Shown: positions 9,928-37,554 of the stretch, piece after piece
Layout: every line of letters starts with the position of its first letter
Numbering within the stretch: position 1 is the stretch's first letter
Assembly (NCBI RefSeq): GCF_000717175.1
Contig: NZ_JNYD01000015.1
Span: 124,001-188,000 of the forward strand
Direction of reading: 5' to 3'
Source: Pseudonocardia autotrophica
Lineage (GTDB): Bacteria > Actinomycetota > Actinomycetes > Mycobacteriales > Pseudonocardiaceae
Length of the DNA stretch: 64,000 bases
Notes under the pieces: model-generated
Told to the model about the DNA's origin: nothing
Database searches by the model: none
The model's input: only the letters and a program-made list of their open reading frames with translations
Position numbers and translations under genes: made by a program

Positions 9928-12900
9928 GTGTCGTTGGCCCCCTCCCCGGCCCGTCGTGCGCCCGATGCCCTCGGCGACCGTCCTGGCCCTCCGTGGTCCC
10001 GTCTGCACCACGTCTTCGAGACCGCCGCGCGCCGCTCGCCGGGCGCCGTGTCCGTCGACGACCACGGCGAGCTGCTGACCTACGCCGAACTCGACGCCCG
10101 TGCCGACGGACTCGCGCACCTGCTCCGTGAGAGCGGCGTGGGTCCGGGTGGCCGCGTCGGCCTGCTGCTCGAGCGCTCGTGGCGGACCTACGCCGCGCTG
10201 CTGGCGGTGCTCAAGGCCGGTGCCGCGTTCGTGCCGATCGACCCGGCGTCGCCCGCGGACCGGGTCGCCTACATCGCCGACGACGCGGGCCTCGACCTGC
10301 TGGTCACGACGTCGGACCTCGCCCCCGGTCTGCGGGTCCCGGAGCTCTGCCTGGACACCGTGCCACTGCCCCCGGCCGACGGACCGCCACCGGTCGACGA
10401 CGTCGACGGCGCCGCCGACCCGACCTGCTACGTGATCTACACGTCCGGCTCCAGCGGCCGCCCGAAGGGCGTGGAGGTCGCGCACTTCAGCATCGTGAAC
10501 TTCCTGCGCGTGGTTCCCGGCGTGTACGACGTCCGCCCCGGCGACCGCGTCTACCAGGGCATGACCATCTCCTTCGACTTCTCGATCGAGGAGATCTGGC
10601 CGACCTTCGCGGTCGGCGCGACCCTCGTCGTCGGCCCGAACGACGAGCGGCGCCTCGGGCCCGAGCTGGCCGACTTCCTCGACCGCACCGGCGTGACGGT
10701 CCTCTACGCGGTGCCGACCCTGCTGGCCACCATCCCGCGGGACCTCCCGGCCGTGCGGGGACTGATGGTCGGGGGCGAGGCCTGCCCCGCCCACCTCGTG
10801 GAGCGCTGGGCGCGACCGGGACGCCGGATGCTGAACACCTACGGGCCCACCGAGGCCACGGTGACCGCGACCTGGGGCGACTTGCTCCCCGGGCGTCCGG
10901 TGACGATCGGCCGGCCCTTGCCGACCTACACCGTCCACATTCTCGACGAGGACCTGCGCGAGGTCATGGGCGACGCCGCGGGAGAGATCTGCATCGGCGG
11001 CCCGGGCGTGGCGCGCGGGTACGTCGGGATGCCGGAGAAGACCGCCGACCGGTTCGTCGAGTTCCGCGGCGAGCGCATCTACCGCACCGGTGATCTCGGG
11101 TGCTGGGACGCGTCCGGCGAGATCGTCTACCTCGGCCGGGCCGACGACGAGGTGAAGATCCGCGGGCACCGGGTCGACCTGGGCGAGATCGACAGCGTGC
11201 TGCTCGGCGACCCCGCGGTGGGCAGCGCCGTGGCCGCGATGGTCGACGACGAGCTCGTGGCCTACGTGACCACGGACCGTCCCGACGACGGCCTGCGGGA
11301 GCGGCTGCACGCGCGGCTGCGGGAGCGGGTGCCGGACTACATGGTCCCGGGCCACCTGGAGGTGCTGCCCGAGCTGCCGACCATGCCGAGCGGCAAGGTC
11401 GACCGCAAGCGGCTGCCGCCGCCCACCTCGCCCAGGCTCGTCGCCCTGGCGGGCGCGCTGGTGCCGCCGGCGACGGCGGCCGAGGAACGGGTGCGCGACG
11501 CCTGGGCCGAGGCCTGCGGGATCGACCCGGCCCAGCTGTCCGTCACCGCCGACTTCTTCGCCGAGCTCGGCGGCCACTCGCTCCTCGCCGCCACCGCCGT
11601 CTCGCTGATGCGCGAGCGCGGGATGGCGACGGTCGCGGTGCGGGACCTGTACGAGAACCCGACGGTGCGCGGGCTCGCCGCCACCCTGCCCGACGTCACC
11701 GCCACCACGCGCGCCGAGCCGGAGAAGACCACGCCGGTGCGCTACGGGCTCGCCGGCACCGTGCAGGCGGGCGTGCTCTACGGATTGCTGATGCTGCTCG
11801 CCGCCCCCGTCGCGGCGATCTACGTGGCCGAGGACGGCCAGGTCTCGCTCGGGGTCCTGACCGCGATCGCGCTCACCGCGACCGCGGTCTACCTCGCGAC
11901 CCGCTGGGCGCTCGCCCCGCTCGGGATCCGGCTGCTCGGCCGCGGGGTGCGGCCGGGCAGGTACCGGCTGTGGGGCCGGGTGCACCTTCGGCTGTGGGCG
12001 ACGGACCTGCTGCTGTCCTTCACCCCGCTGCCGGTGCTGAGCGGGTCGGCGCTCATGCCGGGCTTCCTGCGCCGGCTCGGCGCCCGGATCGGGCCGGACG
12101 CGCACGTCGGAACGGCCTCGCTCTCGTTGCCCCAGCTGATCGACGTCGGCGACGACGCGAGCATCGGGTACGGCGCGGCCCTGCGCCCGTGGGTCGTCGA
12201 GGACGGCCGGGTGGTGGTCGGGCCGGTCCGCGTCGCGGCCGGGGCGTTCGTCGGCGCCGGGGCGCTCCTGCAACCGGGTGCCGTCGTCGGCACCGGCGCG
12301 GTGCTGGGAGAGCAGGCGCTGCTGGCCGGTGAGGTACCGGTCGGGCAGCGGTGGTCCGGCTCCCCGGCCGCCCCTGACCCTGATCGGCGCGCGGACGACG
12401 CGGTGGCCGAACTCGCCGCGCAGCCACCGGCCCAGCCCTGGGGCGCCGCCGGTCGGCTCGGCACGCTCGCCGGCCTGGCGCTGCTCGACCTGCTGCCCAT
12501 CCTCATGCTGGTCCCGACCCTGCTGCTCGTCTGGGGCGCGCTGCTGCAGTTCGGACAGACCGTCGGACTGCTCGCGGCGCTGTGCGTCGGGCCGGTGTTC
12601 GTGGCCACGGTCTGCCTGACGATCGCCGCCAGCCGTCAGGCGGTGCTGCCGACCACCCCGACCGGGATCCATCCCGCCCGCTCGACCCTCGGCGTGCGCA
12701 AGTGGGTCGCCGACAAGCTGCTCGAGATGAGCCTGGAGATGACCAACTCGCTCTACGCCACCCTCTACACCGTGCCGTGGCTGCGGGCCCTGGGCGCCCG
12801 CGTCGGTCCCGGTGCCGAGGTGTCGACCGTCGCGCACGTCGATCCCGACCTGCTCACCCTGGGCCGCGAGAGCTTCGTCGCCGACATGGCGAGCGCGGGC

Positions 12901-13941
12901 GGGGCGACGTTCCACCGCGGCTGGGTCTCCTTCCGGACCACCGAGGTCGGCGAGCGGGCGTTCGTCGGGAACGCGGCGCTGCTGCCGCCGGGGTCGCGGC
13001 TCGGCGCCGGGTCCCTGGTCGGGGTGCAGACCGTGCCGCCGCCCGCGGGCGTGCCGGCGGACAGCGCCTGGCTCGGCTCACCCGCGATGCACCTGCCCGC
13101 CCGGCAGGACAGCGGCGACTTCGCCGAGGGGCTGACCTTCCGGCCGTCGCGCCGGCGGGTCGCCGAGCGGCTGGGGATCGAGTTCCTGCGGATCTGCCTG
13201 CCCTCGTCGCTGATCGCGGTGGCGGTCTACCTGTACCTGCAGGCGCTGTCCACGATGGCCGCGGTGGGGGCGCCGCTGTGGGCGGCGGTGGTGGTCGCGC
13301 CGCTGCTGGCGGTGCTGTTCGGGGTGCTGGTCACCGGTGCGGTCGCGGCGGTGAAGTGGCTCGCCGTGGGGACCTACCGCTCGCGGGTGGAACCGTTGTG
13401 GAGCCGGTTCGTGCGGCGGTCGGAGTTCGTCACCGGGTTGTACGAGGCCGCCGCGGTCCCGGCGATGCTGCAGCTCTTCCGCGGCACCCCGCTGCTGCCG
13501 CCGGCACTGCGCCTGCTCGGTGCGCGGATCGGTCGCCGTACCTACCTCGCCACGACCTATCTCACCGAGTTCGACCTGGTCGACATCGGCGACGACGCCG
13601 CGATCGGCCGGGACGCCTCGTTGCAGACCCACCTCTTCGAGGACCGCGTGATGAAGATGTCCACGGTGCGGATCGGCGCGGGCGCCACCGTCGGGGACCG
13701 GGCCGTCGTGCTCTACGACGCCGCGGTCGGCGAGGGGACCGCGCTCGAGCCGCTGTCGCTGGTCATGAAGGGCGAGTCGCTGCCCCCGCACACCCGCTGG
13801 CGGGGCATCCCGGCCCAGGGCGTGGCCGAGGAGCCCCTCCCGGACCCCGTTACCGAGCCCATCCCGCACGTCCACCCGGCACTGGCCCGGCACCGCCGAG
13901 CCCGGCACCGCCGCGGAGCGCACCGGAATCTGGCCGCCTGA
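9928..13941 (+). CDS. Pls/PosA-type membrane non-ribosomal peptide synthetase
   Basis: 1337 residues. Adenylation domain, residues about 30-510: A3 YTSGSSGRPKG, A5 NTYGPTEA, A7 YRTGDLG, A8 region with VKIRGHRVDLGEID, and the A10 lysine in PSGKVDRK. A carrier domain follows with phosphopantetheine Ser550 in GGHSL. There is no condensation domain. Instead the C-terminal 750 residues hold about six membrane helices interleaved with three left-handed beta-helix domains (DDASIGYGAALR, VGPGAEVST, DDAAIGRDASLQ). This is the layout of epsilon-poly-lysine synthetase Pls and relatives (TIGR02353), which polymerise one amino acid at the membrane. Start GTG 9928 has AGAGGA upstream. It heads a four-gene overlapping operon; the product is unknown. 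Confidence 0.92.
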   Translation: MSLAPSPARRAPDALGDRPGPPWSRLHHVFETAARRSPGAVSVDDHGELLTYAELDARADGLAHLLRESGVGPGGRVGLLLERSWRTYAALLAVLKAGAAFVPIDPASPADRVAYIADDAGLDLLVTTSDLAPGLRVPELCLDTVPLPPADGPPPVDDVDGAADPTCYVIYTSGSSGRPKGVEVAHFSIVNFLRVVPGVYDVRPGDRVYQGMTISFDFSIEEIWPTFAVGATLVVGPNDERRLGPELADFLDRTGVTVLYAVPTLLATIPRDLPAVRGLMVGGEACPAHLVERWARPGRRMLNTYGPTEATVTATWGDLLPGRPVTIGRPLPTYTVHILDEDLREVMGDAAGEICIGGPGVARGYVGMPEKTADRFVEFRGERIYRTGDLGCWDASGEIVYLGRADDEVKIRGHRVDLGEIDSVLLGDPAVGSAVAAMVDDELVAYVTTDRPDDGLRERLHARLRERVPDYMVPGHLEVLPELPTMPSGKVDRKRLPPPTSPRLVALAGALVPPATAAEERVRDAWAEACGIDPAQLSVTADFFAELGGHSLLAATAVSLMRERGMATVAVRDLYENPTVRGLAATLPDVTATTRAEPEKTTPVRYGLAGTVQAGVLYGLLMLLAAPVAAIYVAEDGQVSLGVLTAIALTATAVYLATRWALAPLGIRLLGRGVRPGRYRLWGRVHLRLWATDLLLSFTPLPVLSGSALMPGFLRRLGARIGPDAHVGTASLSLPQLIDVGDDASIGYGAALRPWVVEDGRVVVGPVRVAAGAFVGAGALLQPGAVVGTGAVLGEQALLAGEVPVGQRWSGSPAAPDPDRRADDAVAELAAQPPAQPWGAAGRLGTLAGLALLDLLPILMLVPTLLLVWGALLQFGQTVGLLAALCVGPVFVATVCLTIAASRQAVLPTTPTGIHPARSTLGVRKWVADKLLEMSLEMTNSLYATLYTVPWLRALGARVGPGAEVSTVAHVDPDLLTLGRESFVADMASAGGATFHRGWVSFRTTEVGERAFVGNAALLPPGSRLGAGSLVGVQTVPPPAGVPADSAWLGSPAMHLPARQDSGDFAEGLTFRPSRRRVAERLGIEFLRICLPSSLIAVAVYLYLQALSTMAAVGAPLWAAVVVAPLLAVLFGVLVTGAVAAVKWLAVGTYRSRVEPLWSRFVRRSEFVTGLYEAAAVPAMLQLFRGTPLLPPALRLLGARIGRRTYLATTYLTEFDLVDIGDDAAIGRDASLQTHLFEDRVMKMSTVRIGAGATVGDRAVVLYDAAVGEGTALEPLSLVMKGESLPPHTRWRGIPAQGVAEEPLPDPVTEPIPHVHPALARHRRARHRRGAHRNLAA

Positions 13942-14588
13942 TGCGGGCCCTGGTCTACCGCGGTCGCGCCTCCCGCCCGGCCGGGTGCGCCGAGGCCGTC
14001 GGCGCGCTGCTGGAACGCCACGGCCTGCAGGTCCGGTTCGTGAGCAGGCGGCAGCTCACCCCCGAGGTGCTCGCCACCGCCGACGTCTACGCCCAGCCCG
14101 GCGGCGGCGCCCTCGCCGCCGCCTGGCGGCACCTGCACCGACGCCGCTCGACGATCCGCGACTACGTCGCCGGCGGGGGTCGCTACCTGGGCTTCTGCCT
14201 CGGCGGCTACCTGGCGGGCGCGACCCCCGGGTTCGCCCTGCTGCCCGGCGACACCGACCGCTACGCCGGCTCCCCCGGCGCCGCGACCGGTGACACGGGC
14301 GACCTCGTCCTGCCCGTCTCGTGGCGCGGCCGCCCGCGCCCCGTCTTCTTCCAGGACGGCCCGCTGTTCCTCCTCGACCAGGACGCCGGCGCCGACGTCG
14401 AGGTCCTCGCCCGCTACCCGGAGGGCGGCGTCGCCGCGCTGGCCTGCCCGTTCGGCACGGGCCGGGTCGCCGTCTCCGGCCCGCACCCCGAAGCCGGGCC
14501 CGACTGGTTCACCGACGCCGGCCTGCCCGTCCCCGACCCGCTGCCCACCGACCTCGGGCACGACCTGATCGACGAGGTGCTCGCATGA
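13941..14588 (+). CDS. BPL_N domain (glutamine amidotransferase-like) protein
   Basis: 215 residues resembling the class-I-amidotransferase-like BPL_N domain: Rossmann start MRALVYRGR, ADVYAQPGGG at about residue 50, then YLGFCLGGYLAGA with a cysteine at the nucleophile-elbow position, and GRVAVSGPHPE near the C-terminus in place of a catalytic His-Glu pair. It begins on the last base of the NRPS stop (TGATG) and overlaps the next gene by four bases, so it is strictly coupled to both. A role in tailoring or releasing the NRPS product is inferred from context only; no biotin-ligase catalytic domain is attached. Confidence 0.72.
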   Translation: MRALVYRGRASRPAGCAEAVGALLERHGLQVRFVSRRQLTPEVLATADVYAQPGGGALAAAWRHLHRRRSTIRDYVAGGGRYLGFCLGGYLAGATPGFALLPGDTDRYAGSPGAATGDTGDLVLPVSWRGRPRPVFFQDGPLFLLDQDAGADVEVLARYPEGGVAALACPFGTGRVAVSGPHPEAGPDWFTDAGLPVPDPLPTDLGHDLIDEVLA

Positions 14589-15796
14589 CCGCCACCGCTC
14601 CCGCACCGCTGAGGGGCCCGCAGCGGCCCGCCGATGCAGCGCCGTCGCGCCTGCTCGGCATGGACGCCGCCCGTGGCGTCGCCGTGCTGGGCATGATGGC
14701 CGTCCACTCGCTCTACGACACCACCCCGGACGGCGCCCCGACCACGACGTACCTGGTCACCGCGGGCCGCTCGGCGGCGGTCTTCGCCGTGCTCGCCGGC
14801 GTCGGGATCGCCTTCACCACCGGGCGGCGGCGGGTCGCGTGGGGCCCTGACGGGAGGTCCGCGGGTGCGTCGCTGGCCGCCCGCGCCGCCGTCGTCGGCG
14901 CGATCGGCCTGGCCCTGGGCCGGGGTTCCGCGGAGATCGCGGCGAACATCCTCCCGTACTACGCACTGATGTTCCTGCTCGCAATCCCGCTGGTGTTCCT
15001 CCCGACCCGCGCGCTGGTCGGGGTCGCGACTCTGCTCGCGGCGGGGATGCCGGTGCTGAGCCAGTGGGTCCGGCCCGGGCTGCCCGCCCCGTCGCTGGAG
15101 AACCCGACCGTGACGCAGCTGGTCACCGACCCGCTCGGGCTGCTCTCCGAGCTGGCCCTCACCGGGTACTACCCCGCGTTGCCCTGGCTGGCGTACCTCG
15201 CCGTCGGGATCGCCGTCGGCCGGCTGCGGCTCACCGACACCCGCGTCGCCGTGTGGCTGGCCGCCGGCGGAACGGCGCTCGCGGTGGCGGCCACGCTCGT
15301 CTCCCGGTGGCTCATGGGCCCCCTCGACGGCGAGGCCGCGATCGCCGCCGCGACCCCGCCCGACCTGCTCGCGACCGCGCCGACGGTCGCGGACTTCGTC
15401 GCCGTGTGCCCGGAGGGCACCACCCCGACGACGACGTGGTGGTGGCTCGCCACGGACGCCCCGCACTCGGGGACCCCGGTCGACCTCGCCCAGACCATCG
15501 GCTCCGCCCTGGCGGTGCTCGGCGTGATGCTCCTCCTCGGCCGCCTGGCGAACCCGCTCGTACAGGCCGTGCTGCGGCCGCTCGCCGCGGTCGGGGCGCT
15601 CACCCTCACCGTCTACACGCTGCACGTGGTGTTCCTGAACTCGCCGCTCGACACGTTCGACGCCCTCCCGGGGTACCTCGTGCAGGTCGCGGTGGCGGCC
15701 CTCGGCGCGCTCGCCTGGCGACGCGCCGTCGGCCGCGGCCCGCTCGAGTCGCTCGTCCGGGTGGCGGCGCGGGCCGCGGGACGTGCCGCCGCGTGA
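14585..15796 (+). CDS. Membrane acyltransferase (HGSNAT/DUF1624-DUF418-like)
   Basis: 403 residues with about ten hydrophobic helices. The N-terminal block RLLGMDAARGVAVLGMMAVH is the signature of bacterial heparan-alpha-glucosaminide N-acetyltransferase-like and DUF418 proteins, with the conserved histidine near the end of helix 1. Members move acyl groups across or onto substrates at the membrane. Four-base overlaps at both ends (ATGA, GTGA) tie it to the BPL_N and M1 genes. I infer that it acylates or exports the product of the Pls-like synthetase. Confidence 0.78.
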   Translation: MTATAPAPLRGPQRPADAAPSRLLGMDAARGVAVLGMMAVHSLYDTTPDGAPTTTYLVTAGRSAAVFAVLAGVGIAFTTGRRRVAWGPDGRSAGASLAARAAVVGAIGLALGRGSAEIAANILPYYALMFLLAIPLVFLPTRALVGVATLLAAGMPVLSQWVRPGLPAPSLENPTVTQLVTDPLGLLSELALTGYYPALPWLAYLAVGIAVGRLRLTDTRVAVWLAAGGTALAVAATLVSRWLMGPLDGEAAIAAATPPDLLATAPTVADFVAVCPEGTTPTTTWWWLATDAPHSGTPVDLAQTIGSALAVLGVMLLLGRLANPLVQAVLRPLAAVGALTLTVYTLHVVFLNSPLDTFDALPGYLVQVAVAALGALAWRRAVGRGPLESLVRVAARAAGRAAA

Positions 15797-17181
15797 TCCC
15801 GACGAGGATCCGGGCCGTGGGGCTCGGCGTGCTGCTCGTCATGCTGCTCGCCGCCTGCACCGCCTCGGTCCCGGACGCCGCCGAGGACTGGCCCGCCCCG
15901 TCGCTGGACCGACCCGTCGTCGACGTCGCCTTCGACACGGCGCCCGACCTCGCGTCCGCGACCGGCACCGAGACCGTCCGGTTCACCCCGGACCGGCAGG
16001 TCTGCGAGCTGGTCTTCCGGAACTGGCCGAACAAGCCCACGGCCGCCCGCGCGGGCAGCGCCCTGGAGATCACCAGCGCCCGGGTCGGGGACACCGTGCT
16101 CGCGCCACAGATCGCGCCGGACCCGACCCTGGTCACCCTCCCACTGTCGGCCTGCGTGCCGGCGGGCACCGCGATCACCGCGGACCTGACCTTCCGGCTG
16201 ACGCTCGGGAAGGACTCGGGCGAGCGCGTCGGCTACTCGCCGGCGACCGGCACGGCCTGGTTCGGCACCGCGTTCCCACTGCTGGCCTGGGTGCGCGGGG
16301 AGGGCTGGGTCCGTGATGCCGCGGTCGACCTCTACGGCGAGACCGCGACCAGCGAGGACGCCGCGCTGACGCTCTCCGTCACCGCCGCGGAGGGCCAGGA
16401 GGTCGTGGCCACCGGGACCGCGACGGGCACCACGACCCCGGCGCCGGGCCGCGTCACGCACCAGTTCACGGCCGAGGCCGTGCGCGACGCCGCCGTGTCC
16501 GTGGGCGCCTACGCCGTGACCACCCGCGAGGTCCGCGGCGTGCGCGTGCACGTCGCGACCCCGCGCTCGGGGAGCCGCGCCACCGGCGACGAGTGGATCG
16601 ACGAGCTGGACCTCGCCCTGGAGAGGCACGGGGCGCTGCTCGGCGCCTACCCGTACCCCGACCTGACCGCGACGATCGTGCCCACCCAGACCGACGGCGT
16701 CGAGTTCCCGATGGCGCTGCAGTTCGCCGACGACCGCCGCGCCGAGATCCCGGGCCTGGTCGCCCACGAGCTCGCCCACCAGTGGTTCTACTCGCTGGTC
16801 GGCAACGACCAGGCCCGCGACCCGTGGCTCGACGAGGCCTTCGCGACATGGGCGCAGGCGCTGGCGACCGGGCAGGAGGACCGCTACCGGCTCGACCGGA
16901 TCCCCCGCGGGCTGCGCGGGCGCACCGGCGAGCCCATGGAGTACTGGGCCCGGACGGGCGACTTCACCCGCTACGTCCGCGGCGTCTACGACCAGGGCGC
17001 CGCGGCCCTGCTCGAGGCCCGCCGCCGCGCCGGGGCCGACCGGTTCGACGCCGCGGTCCGCGCGTACCTGCAGGACAACGCCCACCGCGTCGCCGGGCCG
17101 GCCGAGGTGGCCGCCGCCTTTCGGGACGTCCCCGAGGCGCTCGAGGCCCTCCGCGACGCGGGCGCCCTCCCCGCCGGCTGA
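15793..17181 (+). CDS. M1 family metallopeptidase lipoprotein
   Basis: 462 residues with a lipoprotein signal (GLGVLLVMLLAACTA). The zinc site HELAHQW followed 18 residues later by a glutamate in WLDEAF is the M1 pattern. The exopeptidase GAMEN box of aminopeptidase N is only loosely present as VEFPMAL, as often in actinobacterial M1 lipoproteins. It is the last gene of the Pls-like operon (GTG overlapping the previous stop). As I recall, characterised epsilon-poly-lysine producers carry a membrane M1-type enzyme that degrades their own polymer, so an extracellular trimming or self-protection role is plausible here; that link is inference. Confidence 0.85.
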   Translation: MIPTRIRAVGLGVLLVMLLAACTASVPDAAEDWPAPSLDRPVVDVAFDTAPDLASATGTETVRFTPDRQVCELVFRNWPNKPTAARAGSALEITSARVGDTVLAPQIAPDPTLVTLPLSACVPAGTAITADLTFRLTLGKDSGERVGYSPATGTAWFGTAFPLLAWVRGEGWVRDAAVDLYGETATSEDAALTLSVTAAEGQEVVATGTATGTTTPAPGRVTHQFTAEAVRDAAVSVGAYAVTTREVRGVRVHVATPRSGSRATGDEWIDELDLALERHGALLGAYPYPDLTATIVPTQTDGVEFPMALQFADDRRAEIPGLVAHELAHQWFYSLVGNDQARDPWLDEAFATWAQALATGQEDRYRLDRIPRGLRGRTGEPMEYWARTGDFTRYVRGVYDQGAAALLEARRRAGADRFDAAVRAYLQDNAHRVAGPAEVAAAFRDVPEALEALRDAGALPAG

Positions 17182-24866: not shown

Positions 24867-27540
<2,674 letters not shown>

Positions 27541-28894: not shown

Positions 28895-30247
28895 ATGGAC
28901 GCAGCAAGTACGGCTTGGATCCTGGCCGCCACCATGGGCGTGAGCCTCATGGTCCCCGGGCTGGCCCTGTTCTACGGCGGCATGGTGGGGGCGCGCAGCA
29001 TCCTCAACGTCGTCATGATGACCTTCGGCGCGGTCGCCGTGACCGCGTTCGTCTGGACGCTGTTCGGCTACTCCGCCGTCTTCGGGAACTCCTACGGCGG
29101 CGCAGGCCTGCTCGGTGACGTCACCGCGCACCTCGGCCTGGGCAACCTGATCGCCGAGGACCCGAACGCGACGCTGCCACCCGCGCTCGTCGCCGTCTTC
29201 CAGGCGCTGTTCGCGGCGATCACGGTCGCGATCATCTGCGGCGCCGTGGTGGACCGGGTCCGCTTCGGCTCGTGGCTGGTGTTCTGCGCGGTCTGGGTGA
29301 CGCTGGTCTACCTGCCGATCGCACACTGGGTGTTCGCCTTCGACTCCGCCGACGGCAGCCTGCTCGGCGGCTGGATCGCCAACGAGCTGGGCGCGATCGA
29401 CTTCGCCGGCGGCACGGCGGTGCACATCAACTCCGGCATCGCCGCGCTCGCGATCATCCTGGTGCTGGGCAGGCGGCTCGGGTGGCCGCGCCAGCCCCGC
29501 CCGAACAACGTCCCGTTCACCGCGCTCGGCGGCGGGATCCTGTGGTTCGGCTGGTTCGGCTTCAACGGCGGCTCCGCCCTGGCCGCGGGCAACAGCGCGT
29601 CGGTCGTGCTGCTCACCACCTTCAACGCCGCCTGCGCCGCGATGCTGGGCTGGCTGGCCGTCGAGCGGATCATGGACAAGCACGCGACCACCCTCGGCGG
29701 GGTCTCCGGCGTCGTCGCCGGGCTCGTCGCCATCACCCCGGCCTGCGGCGCGGTGTCCCCGCTCGGCGCCCTGGCGATCGGCCTGCTGGCCGGCGTGGTC
29801 TGCGCCTTCGCCATCCGTCTCAAGTACCGGCTGGGCTACGACGACAGCCTCGACGTCGTCGGCGTCCACCTGGTCGGCGGTGTCCTCGGCACCCTGCTGA
29901 TCGGCTTCTTCGCCGACCCGGACGCCCCCAACGGCGCCGCCGGTCTGTTCTACGGCGGCGGGTTCTCCGTCCTCGGCATCCAGGCCGTCGCGGTGGTCGC
30001 CGTGCTCGCCTACTCCTTCGCCGTGACGTGGGTGATCGCGAAGGTCATCGACCTTACCCTGGGGCTGCGCCTCTCGCGCGAGGTGGAGACCGAGGGCGTC
30101 GACGTCCGGGTGCACGGCGAGCAGGCCTACGACCTCGACGGCCACGTGCACGCCCCGGCCGCGGACCTCGCCACCCGCGAGCACGAGGTCGTCGCCTCCG
30201 CCGAGGCCGCCCTCGCCACCGACGGGCCGGCCCCGGCCCGCGACTGA
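28895..30247 (+). CDS. amt: Ammonium/methylammonium transporter (Amt family)
   Basis: 450 residues, about eleven helices, with the Amt hallmarks: ALFYGGMVGARS near the N-terminus, the Asp before AHWVFAFD, and the twin pore histidines in AVHINSG and VGVHLVGG. It carries a long acidic and histidine-bearing cytoplasmic tail (EVETEGVDVRVHGEQAYDLDGHVH). ATG 28895 has GAGGAG upstream. It is the first gene of the methylated-amine island, so methylammonium uptake or recapture of released ammonium is likely. No glnK is adjacent, which is unusual for a plain nitrogen-scavenging Amt. Confidence 0.92.
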   Translation: MDAASTAWILAATMGVSLMVPGLALFYGGMVGARSILNVVMMTFGAVAVTAFVWTLFGYSAVFGNSYGGAGLLGDVTAHLGLGNLIAEDPNATLPPALVAVFQALFAAITVAIICGAVVDRVRFGSWLVFCAVWVTLVYLPIAHWVFAFDSADGSLLGGWIANELGAIDFAGGTAVHINSGIAALAIILVLGRRLGWPRQPRPNNVPFTALGGGILWFGWFGFNGGSALAAGNSASVVLLTTFNAACAAMLGWLAVERIMDKHATTLGGVSGVVAGLVAITPACGAVSPLGALAIGLLAGVVCAFAIRLKYRLGYDDSLDVVGVHLVGGVLGTLLIGFFADPDAPNGAAGLFYGGGFSVLGIQAVAVVAVLAYSFAVTWVIAKVIDLTLGLRLSREVETEGVDVRVHGEQAYDLDGHVHAPAADLATREHEVVASAEAALATDGPAPARD

Positions 30248-36222: not shown

Positions 36223-37554
36223 ATGATCGACCCTGCCCAGCCGAACCCGGCACTGCGTGAGTCGGCCACCTTCGACCGCGCCACCATCGCCGGCATCCAG
36301 CGCGCCGCCGCGACCGGCGTCTACGACATCCGCGGCTGGGGCGCCAAGCGCGCCCTGCCGCACTTCGACGACCTGCTGTTCCTCGGCGCCTCGATGTCCC
36401 GCTACCCGCTGGAGGGCTACCGGGAGCGCTGCGACACCGACGTGGTCCTCGGCGACCGCAACGCCAGGTACCCGCTGCACCTCGCGATCCCGGTGACCAT
36501 CGCGGGCATGTCCTTCGGCGCCCTGTCTGCGCAGGCCAAGGAGGCGCTCGGGCGGGGCGCGTCGGAGGTCGGCACCTCCACCACCACCGGCGACGGCGGC
36601 ATGACCCCCGAGGAGCGCGGCCAGTCCAAGCACCTCGTCTACCAGTACCTGCCCTCGCGGTACGGGATGAACCCGACCGACCTGCGCAAGGCCGACGCGA
36701 TCGAGATCGTCCTCGGCCAGGGCGCCAAGCCCGGCGGCGGTGGGATGCTGCTGGGGCAGAAGATCTCCGACCGGGTCGCCGGGATGCGCACCCTGCCCGC
36801 GGGCATCGACCAGCGCTCCGCCTGCCGGCACCCCGACTGGACCGGCCCGGACGACCTCGCCATCAAGATCCTCGAGCTGCGCGAGATCACCGACTGGGAG
36901 AAGCCGGTCTACGTCAAGGTCGGCGCCTCCCGCACGTACTACGACGTGAAGCTCGCCGTCGCGGCCGGCGCGGACGTGGTCGTCGTCGACGGGATGCAGG
37001 GCGGCACCGCCGCCACCCAGGACGTGTTCATCGAGAACGTCGGCATCCCCACCCTGGCCGCGATCCCGCAGGCCGTGCAGGCCCTGCAGGAGCTGGGGCT
37101 GCACCGCAAGGTCCAGCTGATCGTCTCCGGCGGGATCCGCACCGGCGCCGACGTCGCCAAGGCCATGGCCCTCGGGGCCGACGCCGTCGCGATCGGCACC
37201 GCCGCCCTGATCGCGCTGGGCGACAACGACCCCAAGTACTCCGAGGAGTACCGCAAGCTCGGCTCGGAGGCCGGCTTCTACGACGACTTCCAGGACGGTC
37301 GCGACCCCGCCGGCATCTCCACCCAGGACCCCGAGCTCGCCGCCCGGCTCGACCCGGTCGAGGGCGGCAAGCGGCTCGCGAACTACCTGCGGGTGCTCAC
37401 CATGGAGGCCCAGACCATCGCCCGCGCCTGCGGCAAGGCGCACCTGCAGCACCTCGAGCCGGAGGACCTCGTCGCGCTGACGATCGAGGCCGCCGCCATG
37501 GCCCGCGTCCCGCTGGCCGGGACGAGCTGGATCCCGGGGAGCACCCGTGCCTGA
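36223..37554 (+). CDS. mgsC: N-methylglutamate synthase subunit C-like (FMN glutamate synthase), Fe-S cysteines absent
   Basis: 443 residues of the GltB FMN domain: MSFGALSAQAKEALGRGA, TTTGDGGM, GAKPGGGGMLLGQK, VVDGMQGGTAATQ and the phosphate-binding SGGIRTGADVAKAMALGAD. In glutamate synthases the next region is a cysteine motif, usually C-x2-C-H-x4-C-P-x-G before TQDPEL, that holds a 3Fe-4S cluster. Here it reads FQDGRDPAGISTQDPEL with no cysteine; the only nearby Cys is in ARACGKAH, itself a normal family residue. Electron supply must therefore differ. It overlaps the FAD gene by eight bases. Confidence 0.87.
   Translation: MIDPAQPNPALRESATFDRATIAGIQRAAATGVYDIRGWGAKRALPHFDDLLFLGASMSRYPLEGYRERCDTDVVLGDRNARYPLHLAIPVTIAGMSFGALSAQAKEALGRGASEVGTSTTTGDGGMTPEERGQSKHLVYQYLPSRYGMNPTDLRKADAIEIVLGQGAKPGGGGMLLGQKISDRVAGMRTLPAGIDQRSACRHPDWTGPDDLAIKILELREITDWEKPVYVKVGASRTYYDVKLAVAAGADVVVVDGMQGGTAATQDVFIENVGIPTLAAIPQAVQALQELGLHRKVQLIVSGGIRTGADVAKAMALGADAVAIGTAALIALGDNDPKYSEEYRKLGSEAGFYDDFQDGRDPAGISTQDPELAARLDPVEGGKRLANYLRVLTMEAQTIARACGKAHLQHLEPEDLVALTIEAAAMARVPLAGTSWIPGSTRA

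Follow-up and report, generated by a model that had tools for sequence, protein, structure and literature searches.

Four overlapping genes in Pseudonocardia autotrophica encode a membrane-embedded homopolymer synthetase of the Pls/PosA family, a stand-alone BPL_N protein, an HGSNAT-type membrane acyltransferase and an M1-type metallopeptidase lipoprotein, and this gene set recurs in related genomes. The genes lie in a 64,000-nucleotide stretch of contig NZ_JNYD01000015.1, hereafter called the window. The association first noticed there is confirmed and is more general than a single window. Judging from the predicted proteins, we favor the reading, at somewhat below even confidence, that the four genes constitute an operon dedicated to one product, a cationic homopolymer in which a short diamino acid (2,4-diaminobutyrate or 2,3-diaminopropionate) is joined by isopeptide bonds and which would be N-acylated and trimmed. 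The pairing of such a synthetase with a peptidase is already known; the BPL_N and HGSNAT-type partners appear to be new beside a Pls/PosA-type synthetase.

A four-gene operon kept together in relatives

The four reading frames (Table 1) had originally been noted to touch or overlap by one to four bases, and the measured overlaps are 1, 4, and 4 bases. The synthetase/BPL_N junction reads TGATG, the junction of BPL_N with the acyltransferase gene ATGA, and that of the acyltransferase gene with the M1 gene GTGA. The synthetase gene starts with GTG, ahead of which lies an AGAGGAA stretch. Both flanking genes, for a DUF5701 protein upstream and for a protein with a sub-threshold match to ZIP downstream, are on the opposite strand; thus, the unit consists of four genes. 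All four proteins score above the curated cut-offs of their families.

Table 1. Features in the window, with the best-supported family model where one was scored
Feature	Coordinates	Strand	Length (residues)	Family model	Score (cut-off), bits
Pls/PosA-family homopolymer synthetase ORF (open reading frame)	9928-13941	+	1337	TIGR02353	569.9 (423.1)
Stand-alone BPL_N ORF	13941-14588	+	215	PF09825	57.2 (24.2)
HGSNAT_cat-type polytopic membrane acyltransferase ORF	14585-15796	+	403	PF07786	57.5 (22.0)
M1-type metallopeptidase lipoprotein ORF	15793-17181	+	462	PF01433	47.1 (27.7)
Class III aminotransferase	26212-27540	+			
Ammonium transporter	28934-30247	+			
Glutamate-synthase-like protein	36223-37554	+			

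It is evident that the gene set is maintained in related genomes. Among eight named loci found via the BPL_N protein, which partly duplicate records in the genome set, seven have all four genes together. One of the seven is from Pseudonocardia halophobica VKM Ac-1069 (L034), and its proteins are 100% identical to those of the window. The eighth (L039) shows no M1 match, and its acyltransferase gene is inverted and upstream. We fetched 76 loci in all, picked for carrying BPL_N. A synthetase is nearby in 54 of them, as an A-domain (adenylation domain) match in the same block in 52 and as a terminal-domain piece in two (L047 and L103); the acyltransferase gene is found in 44 and the M1 gene in 27. 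The remaining 22 loci have no synthetase in the block (L020, L021, L023, L024, L080, L081, L083-L086, L088, L090-L098, L101, and L107), two of which (L024 and L092) have a distant, 26% synthetase-like match on the other strand. The commonest gene orders are synthetase-BPL_N-M1-HGSNAT (13 loci), synthetase-BPL_N-HGSNAT-M1 (10 loci, the order in the window), and synthetase-BPL_N-HGSNAT-BPL_N (10 loci). A 1- or 4-base overlap joins synthetase and BPL_N genes in 27 of the 52 loci having both. The view from the synthetase side comes from a search of 62 genomes of the genus with the last 437 synthetase residues, which found 16 places at 68-100% identity, the others among the matches listed being at 43% or less. 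BPL_N is present within 1 kb of 14 of these 16 synthetases; the other two matches stop close to the end of a contig (at 494 and about 300 bases), where the presence of BPL_N cannot be judged. These results show that the genes are kept together in related genomes, and chance neighborhood was rejected because the partners recur beside the synthetase.

BPL_N itself is rare, being found in 3 of 396 genomes in a phylum-wide sample (its own genome included) and in 66 of 390 genomes in the family, at E 1e-15 with only the best first-look candidates per genome scored. The own genome contains, at E 1e-5, three HGSNAT-type genes and one gene of the window's M1 type. We also considered that the four genes might form an ordinary operon of synthetase and peptidase making a diamino-acid polymer, in which BPL_N and the HGSNAT-type gene are tolerated passengers that contribute nothing to the product. 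The pair of synthetase and M1 gene is indeed known and recurrent, and both the HGSNAT-type and M1 genes vary in presence and order. However, so rare a gene as BPL_N would hardly be expected beside nearly all synthetases of the window's clade in the genus, and the acyltransferase has been retained in 44 of the 76 loci through several gene orders. We regard passengers as a rather improbable explanation.

The synthetase and its predicted monomer

The synthetase contains an AMP-binding A domain (residues about 30-500), a peptidyl carrier protein (PCP) domain (520-587, with GGHSL at 548), and a terminal polymerization domain (620-1296); neither a condensation nor a thioesterase (TE) domain was found by Pfam at E 0.01. 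A single A-PCP module followed by a TIGR02353 terminal domain is the arrangement that marks Pls/PosA synthetases of cationic homopolyamino acids. Among nine hydrophobic segments, the strongest six form three pairs (616-657, 850-897, and 1086-1135), matching the published layout. The epsilon-poly-lysine synthetase layout of the original prediction is thus borne out in its A-PCP part, terminal domain, and helix pairs, the three predicted beta-helices being represented only by one hexapeptide-repeat (Hexapep) match at residues 767-800 and by family membership.

At the positions numbered as in PosA, the residues of the substrate pocket are D217, F218, E221, Y260, M280, G282, T304, V312, T313, and K490. 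Asp and Glu at pocket positions 1 and 3 are conserved in such enzymes, and position 2 is Ala in lysine enzymes, Met in ornithine enzymes, and Phe in synthetases of poly(diaminopropionate) (PDAP) and poly(diaminobutyrate) (PDAB) (PMC10522769; this and the other sources given by PMC number are drawn on in excerpt). The window synthetase has both acidic residues (D217 and E221), and its Phe218 agrees with the PDAP/PDAB enzymes and not with the lysine enzymes. Given this Phe, our best guess is that the monomer would be a short diamino acid rather than lysine. Of 60 A-domain rows in the alignment, 45 have the pocket DFE[YC].GTVTK; of the rest, six have DFECLSVV[TS]K, eight are partial or unreadable, and one (L022) has DGESVSVVNK. 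This last locus (L022:9641-14300), in which the BPL_N gene overlaps the synthetase gene by 4 bases, has a pocket one residue away from DGESISVVNK, the published code of an epsilon-poly-beta-lysine synthetase (PMC10522769).

We then placed the synthetase in a quick maximum-likelihood tree of 71 synthetases (without a mixture model), in which L022, L073, and L082 sit on long branches and are unsurely placed. Synthetases of 1200 residues or fewer (L064, L065, L105, and L106) were left out, as were L028, L092, L108, and L128, for the last of which no long ORF had been retained. All 43 rows with the window's pocket form one clade (SH-aLRT 100), separate from 19 rows of the epsilon-poly-lysine (epsilon-PL) type and from three other synthetases of the own genome. 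The epsilon-PL type is the sole group of known product compared here, and the window synthetase falls outside its clade. An identity as an epsilon-PL operon was therefore rejected, since both the pocket (Phe218) and the tree placement disagree with it. These results suggest that synthetases with the DFE[YC].GTVTK pocket may represent a new clade relative to the known epsilon-PL kind. The own genome has six matches above the Pls/PosA cut-off, among which the window synthetase scores lowest; the five others are on contigs C2, C3, C4, C15, and C49 (L001-L004 and L027-L031), and their pockets are not reliably readable.

A different monomer has also been considered, namely ornithine or another diamino acid derived from arginine. 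In 12 of 48 synthetase loci (L017, L018, L050, L054, L056, L059, L061, L064, L065, L066, L070, and L071), the operon includes a fifth gene of about 263 residues, often overlapping, that is related to arginine dihydrolase/dimethylargininase and could make ornithine. But this gene is absent from the window's operon, the loci with and without it share the same pocket code, and the ornithine enzyme PosA has Met where the window has Phe. Ornithine can, moreover, feed 2,3-diaminopropionate (Dap) synthesis as well (PMC4668381). Ornithine or another arginine-derived diamino acid as the monomer seems quite improbable.

The product might also stay at the cell surface. The synthetase could aminoacylate wall polymers, or graft short oligomers onto them, while the HGSNAT-type enzyme acylates the same acceptor, with no polymer secreted. 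DltA models are among the matches of the A domain, under their cut-offs, and the envelope is where the synthetase and the acyltransferase, both membrane proteins, would meet the lipoprotein peptidase. Against such decoration, the terminal domain matches the curated homopolymer-synthetase domain above its cut-off. In addition, among the gene families of 48 neighborhoods (left unannotated), none besides those of the four genes and the arginine-dihydrolase-like gene recurs in more than 8. Envelope decoration is quite improbable in our estimate.

Genes resembling 4'-phosphopantetheinyl transferases were noticed in some operon neighborhoods, above the Pfam cut-off in L106 and below it in L059, and by clustering with L059 in L047 and L061. 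Their presence is consistent with the need of a PCP for priming. Farther downstream on the same strand of the window, the genes between 26212 and 37554 (Table 1) resemble a stretch for nitrogen metabolism.

The BPL_N protein

The 215-residue BPL_N protein matches PF09825 only, and no catalytic domain of a biotin-protein ligase (BPL) accompanies it, so that it does not qualify as such a ligase. Cys86, His182, and Glu184 occur without exception in the 85 aligned rows, from which the divergent or duplicate loci L023, L024, L025, L107, and L108 were excluded. This trio would supply the nucleophile, the His, and the acidic partner of a class I glutamine-amidotransferase-like or S51-like hydrolase. 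A search of its profile against solved structures gave weak matches only, to glutamine amidotransferases (E 0.003). A weak match was also found to a Peptidase_S51 protein of the own genome (38% identity over 103 residues), in which Cys86 lies opposite the serine of GASAGS, which we take to be the nucleophile; the hhalign probability is 70%, with the S51 side being one sequence entered twice. Family S51 is the cyanophycinase/dipeptidase E group. None of 51 BPL_N members matches the S51 Pfam model at E 0.01. These results point to BPL_N as a putative Cys-His-Glu hydrolase of the glutamine-amidotransferase/S51-like kind. An apparent second BPL_N/HGSNAT pair in the own genome (G000:C1) was rejected because its BPL_N match is this Peptidase_S51 gene. 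At that place (L026:9269-11943), a single lipoprotein-like ORF separates the S51 gene from another HGSNAT-type gene, a faint echo of the BPL_N/HGSNAT pairing.

Export signals, called as twin Arg plus a hydrophobic stretch (twin-arginine translocation or Tat type), are distributed unevenly. The window BPL_N has no signal peptide, as scored on the identical L108 protein, and none of 42 single-copy BPL_N proteins with a synthetase has an export signal; L082, with BPL_N upstream, has a hydrophobic lipobox-like stretch. In all 12 loci with two BPL_N copies, exactly one copy has a Tat-type signal, and none of these loci has M1. No locus combines M1 with a second BPL_N, and the same holds for the 47 BPL_N-bearing rows of the tree (25 with M1, 11 with an exported BPL_N, and 11 with neither). 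This distribution is a hint that the exported BPL_N and M1 may do the same job.

Alternatively, BPL_N could be the chain-release enzyme, which would hydrolyze the thioester of the PCP-bound polymer or pass the chain to an amine and thereby set chain length. Its gene directly follows the synthetase gene, with the short overlaps described above. The synthetase-adjacent copy has no export signal and hence would share the cytosol with the PCP, and its Cys-His-Glu set is intact. Furthermore, the excerpt of PMC4668381 states that a TE domain went undetected in the synthetase for PDAP and leaves release to be explained. However, the exported second copies and the 22 loci with no synthetase in the block suggest a substrate other than a PCP thioester, and in 18 of 20 epsilon-PL-type loci the next gene is M1, not BPL_N. 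A release function is a credible candidate, although we think it unlikely.

The acyltransferase and the M1 peptidase

PF07786 (HGSNAT_cat) matches all 34 aligned acyltransferase members at E 0.01. The window protein has eight membrane segments by hydropathy, and its His41 and His294 are shared by all 47 rows. The HGSNAT half of its original HGSNAT/DUF418-like label holds, whereas DUF418 remains sub-threshold (18.7 vs. 23.6 bits). Human HGSNAT passes acetyl from cytosolic acetyl-CoA to an amino group across the membrane. By analogy, an HGSNAT-type enzyme could find a suitable acceptor in an amino-rich chain as it emerges from the membrane.

The M1 protein has a lipobox (LAAC, Cys22) and the zinc site H325ExxH329 with E348 (HExxH-x18-E), and H325, E326, H329, and E348 are invariant in all 27 operon M1 rows. 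The GxMEN motif of M1 aminopeptidases is not present in the window protein, which has GVEFP there; G302 and E304 are kept in 27 of 27 rows. A lipobox is found in 26 of the 27 operon M1 proteins, and the 27th (L106) shows one when read from an upstream start.

A coupling of synthetase and peptidase has precedents. In Streptomyces albulus, pldII overlaps pls by 4 bases (PMC4361855); it is translationally coupled to pls, and PldII degrades epsilon-PL (PMC9223678). A synthetase-peptidase operon is also described in Corynebacterium (PMC8117764). The excerpts of these three papers do not name the peptidase family of pldII-type genes. A 119-residue piece of epsilon-PL synthase also served as a query against 246 genomes of the class; 49 matched, and 20 of the 49 loci were fetched. 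In 18 of the 20, the next gene encodes an M1-like protein with HE[LM][AS]HQWFGN, seven of these genes overlapping by 4 bases (with starts called by script); L119 and L120 have no M1 gene next. The window M1 shares 25-38% identity in the best segment with these 18 proteins. Within the first 45 residues of the 18, no stretch exceeds 1.4 in hydrophobicity, and a peptidase made as a lipoprotein may be a new feature relative to epsilon-PL operons. A wholly unprecedented partner set was rejected in view of the published pls-pldII pair and the 18 loci. The original statement that no pathway with these four partners was known thus needs to be narrowed to the BPL_N and HGSNAT-type additions.

Proposed pathway and its weight

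The favored reading, a dedicated operon for an acylated short-diamino-acid polymer, would work as follows. By homology, the membrane-embedded synthetase would activate the monomer, load it onto the PCP, and polymerize it via the terminal domain. The HGSNAT-type protein may transfer an acyl group, probably acetyl, across the membrane and attach it to free amines on the chain as this emerges, which would make the chain less charged and less toxic to the producer. Outside the membrane, the M1 lipoprotein could trim or degrade the polymer as PldII does epsilon-PL, and the cytosolic BPL_N might cleave polymer or aborted chains within the cell. In some relatives without M1, a second, Tat-exported BPL_N may take the outside job. 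As for the earlier idea that the operon makes, modifies, and exports a polymer with M1 as a trimming factor, making, modifying, and trimming are plausible, acylation as the modification is conjectural, and no dedicated exporter was shown.

Several observations weigh against this pathway. The monomer prediction leans mainly on a single pocket position, and a search that did not extend to ask or Dap-supply genes placed no dat-family gene above cut-off in the vicinity of the operon; the single dat-family match over cut-off in the own genome is on another contig. Between the acyltransferase profile and human HGSNAT, the match is limited to 23 residues at E 0.8, so the acceptor and the acyl group are guesses. 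Of the 22 BPL_N genes whose block lacks a synthetase, 19 have an export signal. The mutual absence of M1 and a second BPL_N does not stand as a statistical exclusion, for the tree accounts for it by about four changes, the test by independent pairs does not reach significance, and 11 of the 47 rows have neither. Gene arrangement is also variable: the acyltransferase gene is inverted in L044, in five loci BPL_N lies upstream of the synthetase gene and the block lacks an acyltransferase, and a sister-clade synthetase (L040, G001) has an acyltransferase gene beside it without BPL_N.

A broader hypothesis, speculative but with a real chance of being correct, is that an N-acylated, chain-length-controlled poly(diaminobutyrate)/poly(diaminopropionate) pathway exists family-wide. 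Stand-alone BPL_N proteins would then be new isopeptide-polymer hydrolases or release enzymes, with a cytosolic copy and, in some genera, an exported copy replacing M1. Our search of the open-licence literature (titles and abstract starts, not print at large) found nothing that links BPL_N or HGSNAT to a Pls/PosA-type synthetase. In the excerpt of PMC4668381, how the chain exits the PDAP synthetase and what determines its mass range are left unexplained. Coupled as it is to such a synthetase, a conserved hydrolase-like gene offers a direct candidate for this question of release and length. If the HGSNAT-type enzyme does acylate the chain, the polymers would have a richer chemistry than the plain cationic ones described in the papers examined. 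The operon also gives stand-alone BPL_N proteins a genomic context.

Comparison with known systems

Within peptidase family S51, the nearest likeness to BPL_N is the alignment around the GASAGS serine; BPL_N differs in having Cys where S51 has Ser and in leaving the Pfam S51 model unmatched. In Kutzneria albida, A-PCP synthetases that carry a 700-residue domain occur alongside genes usual in siderophore pathways (PMC4210621). PosA, the delta-poly-L-ornithine synthetase of Acinetobacter baumannii, belongs to the same family as the window synthetase and shares its pocket numbering (D217, E221, and T304), but PosA has Met218 and is encoded in a single-gene operon (PMC10522769), whereas the window has Phe218 in a four-gene operon. 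The epsilon-PL synthetase with PldII, a group of systems that takes in Corynebacterium variabile, is alike in that a membrane-embedded synthetase with A, PCP, and terminal domains is coupled to a peptidase gene. It differs in its clade and in having Ala, not Phe, at pocket position 2. In 18 of 20 loci of its type an M1 gene is directly next, whereas the window M1 is a lipoprotein encoded by the fourth gene of an overlapping run, and the window operon adds the BPL_N and HGSNAT-type genes. The beta-PDAP and gamma-PDAB synthetases of Streptomyces albulus PD-1 and Streptoalloteichus hindustanus have dat and ask in their gene contexts (PMC8117764), unlike the window operon as far as dat is concerned, and they share with the window synthetase the Phe at the second pocket position (PMC10522769).

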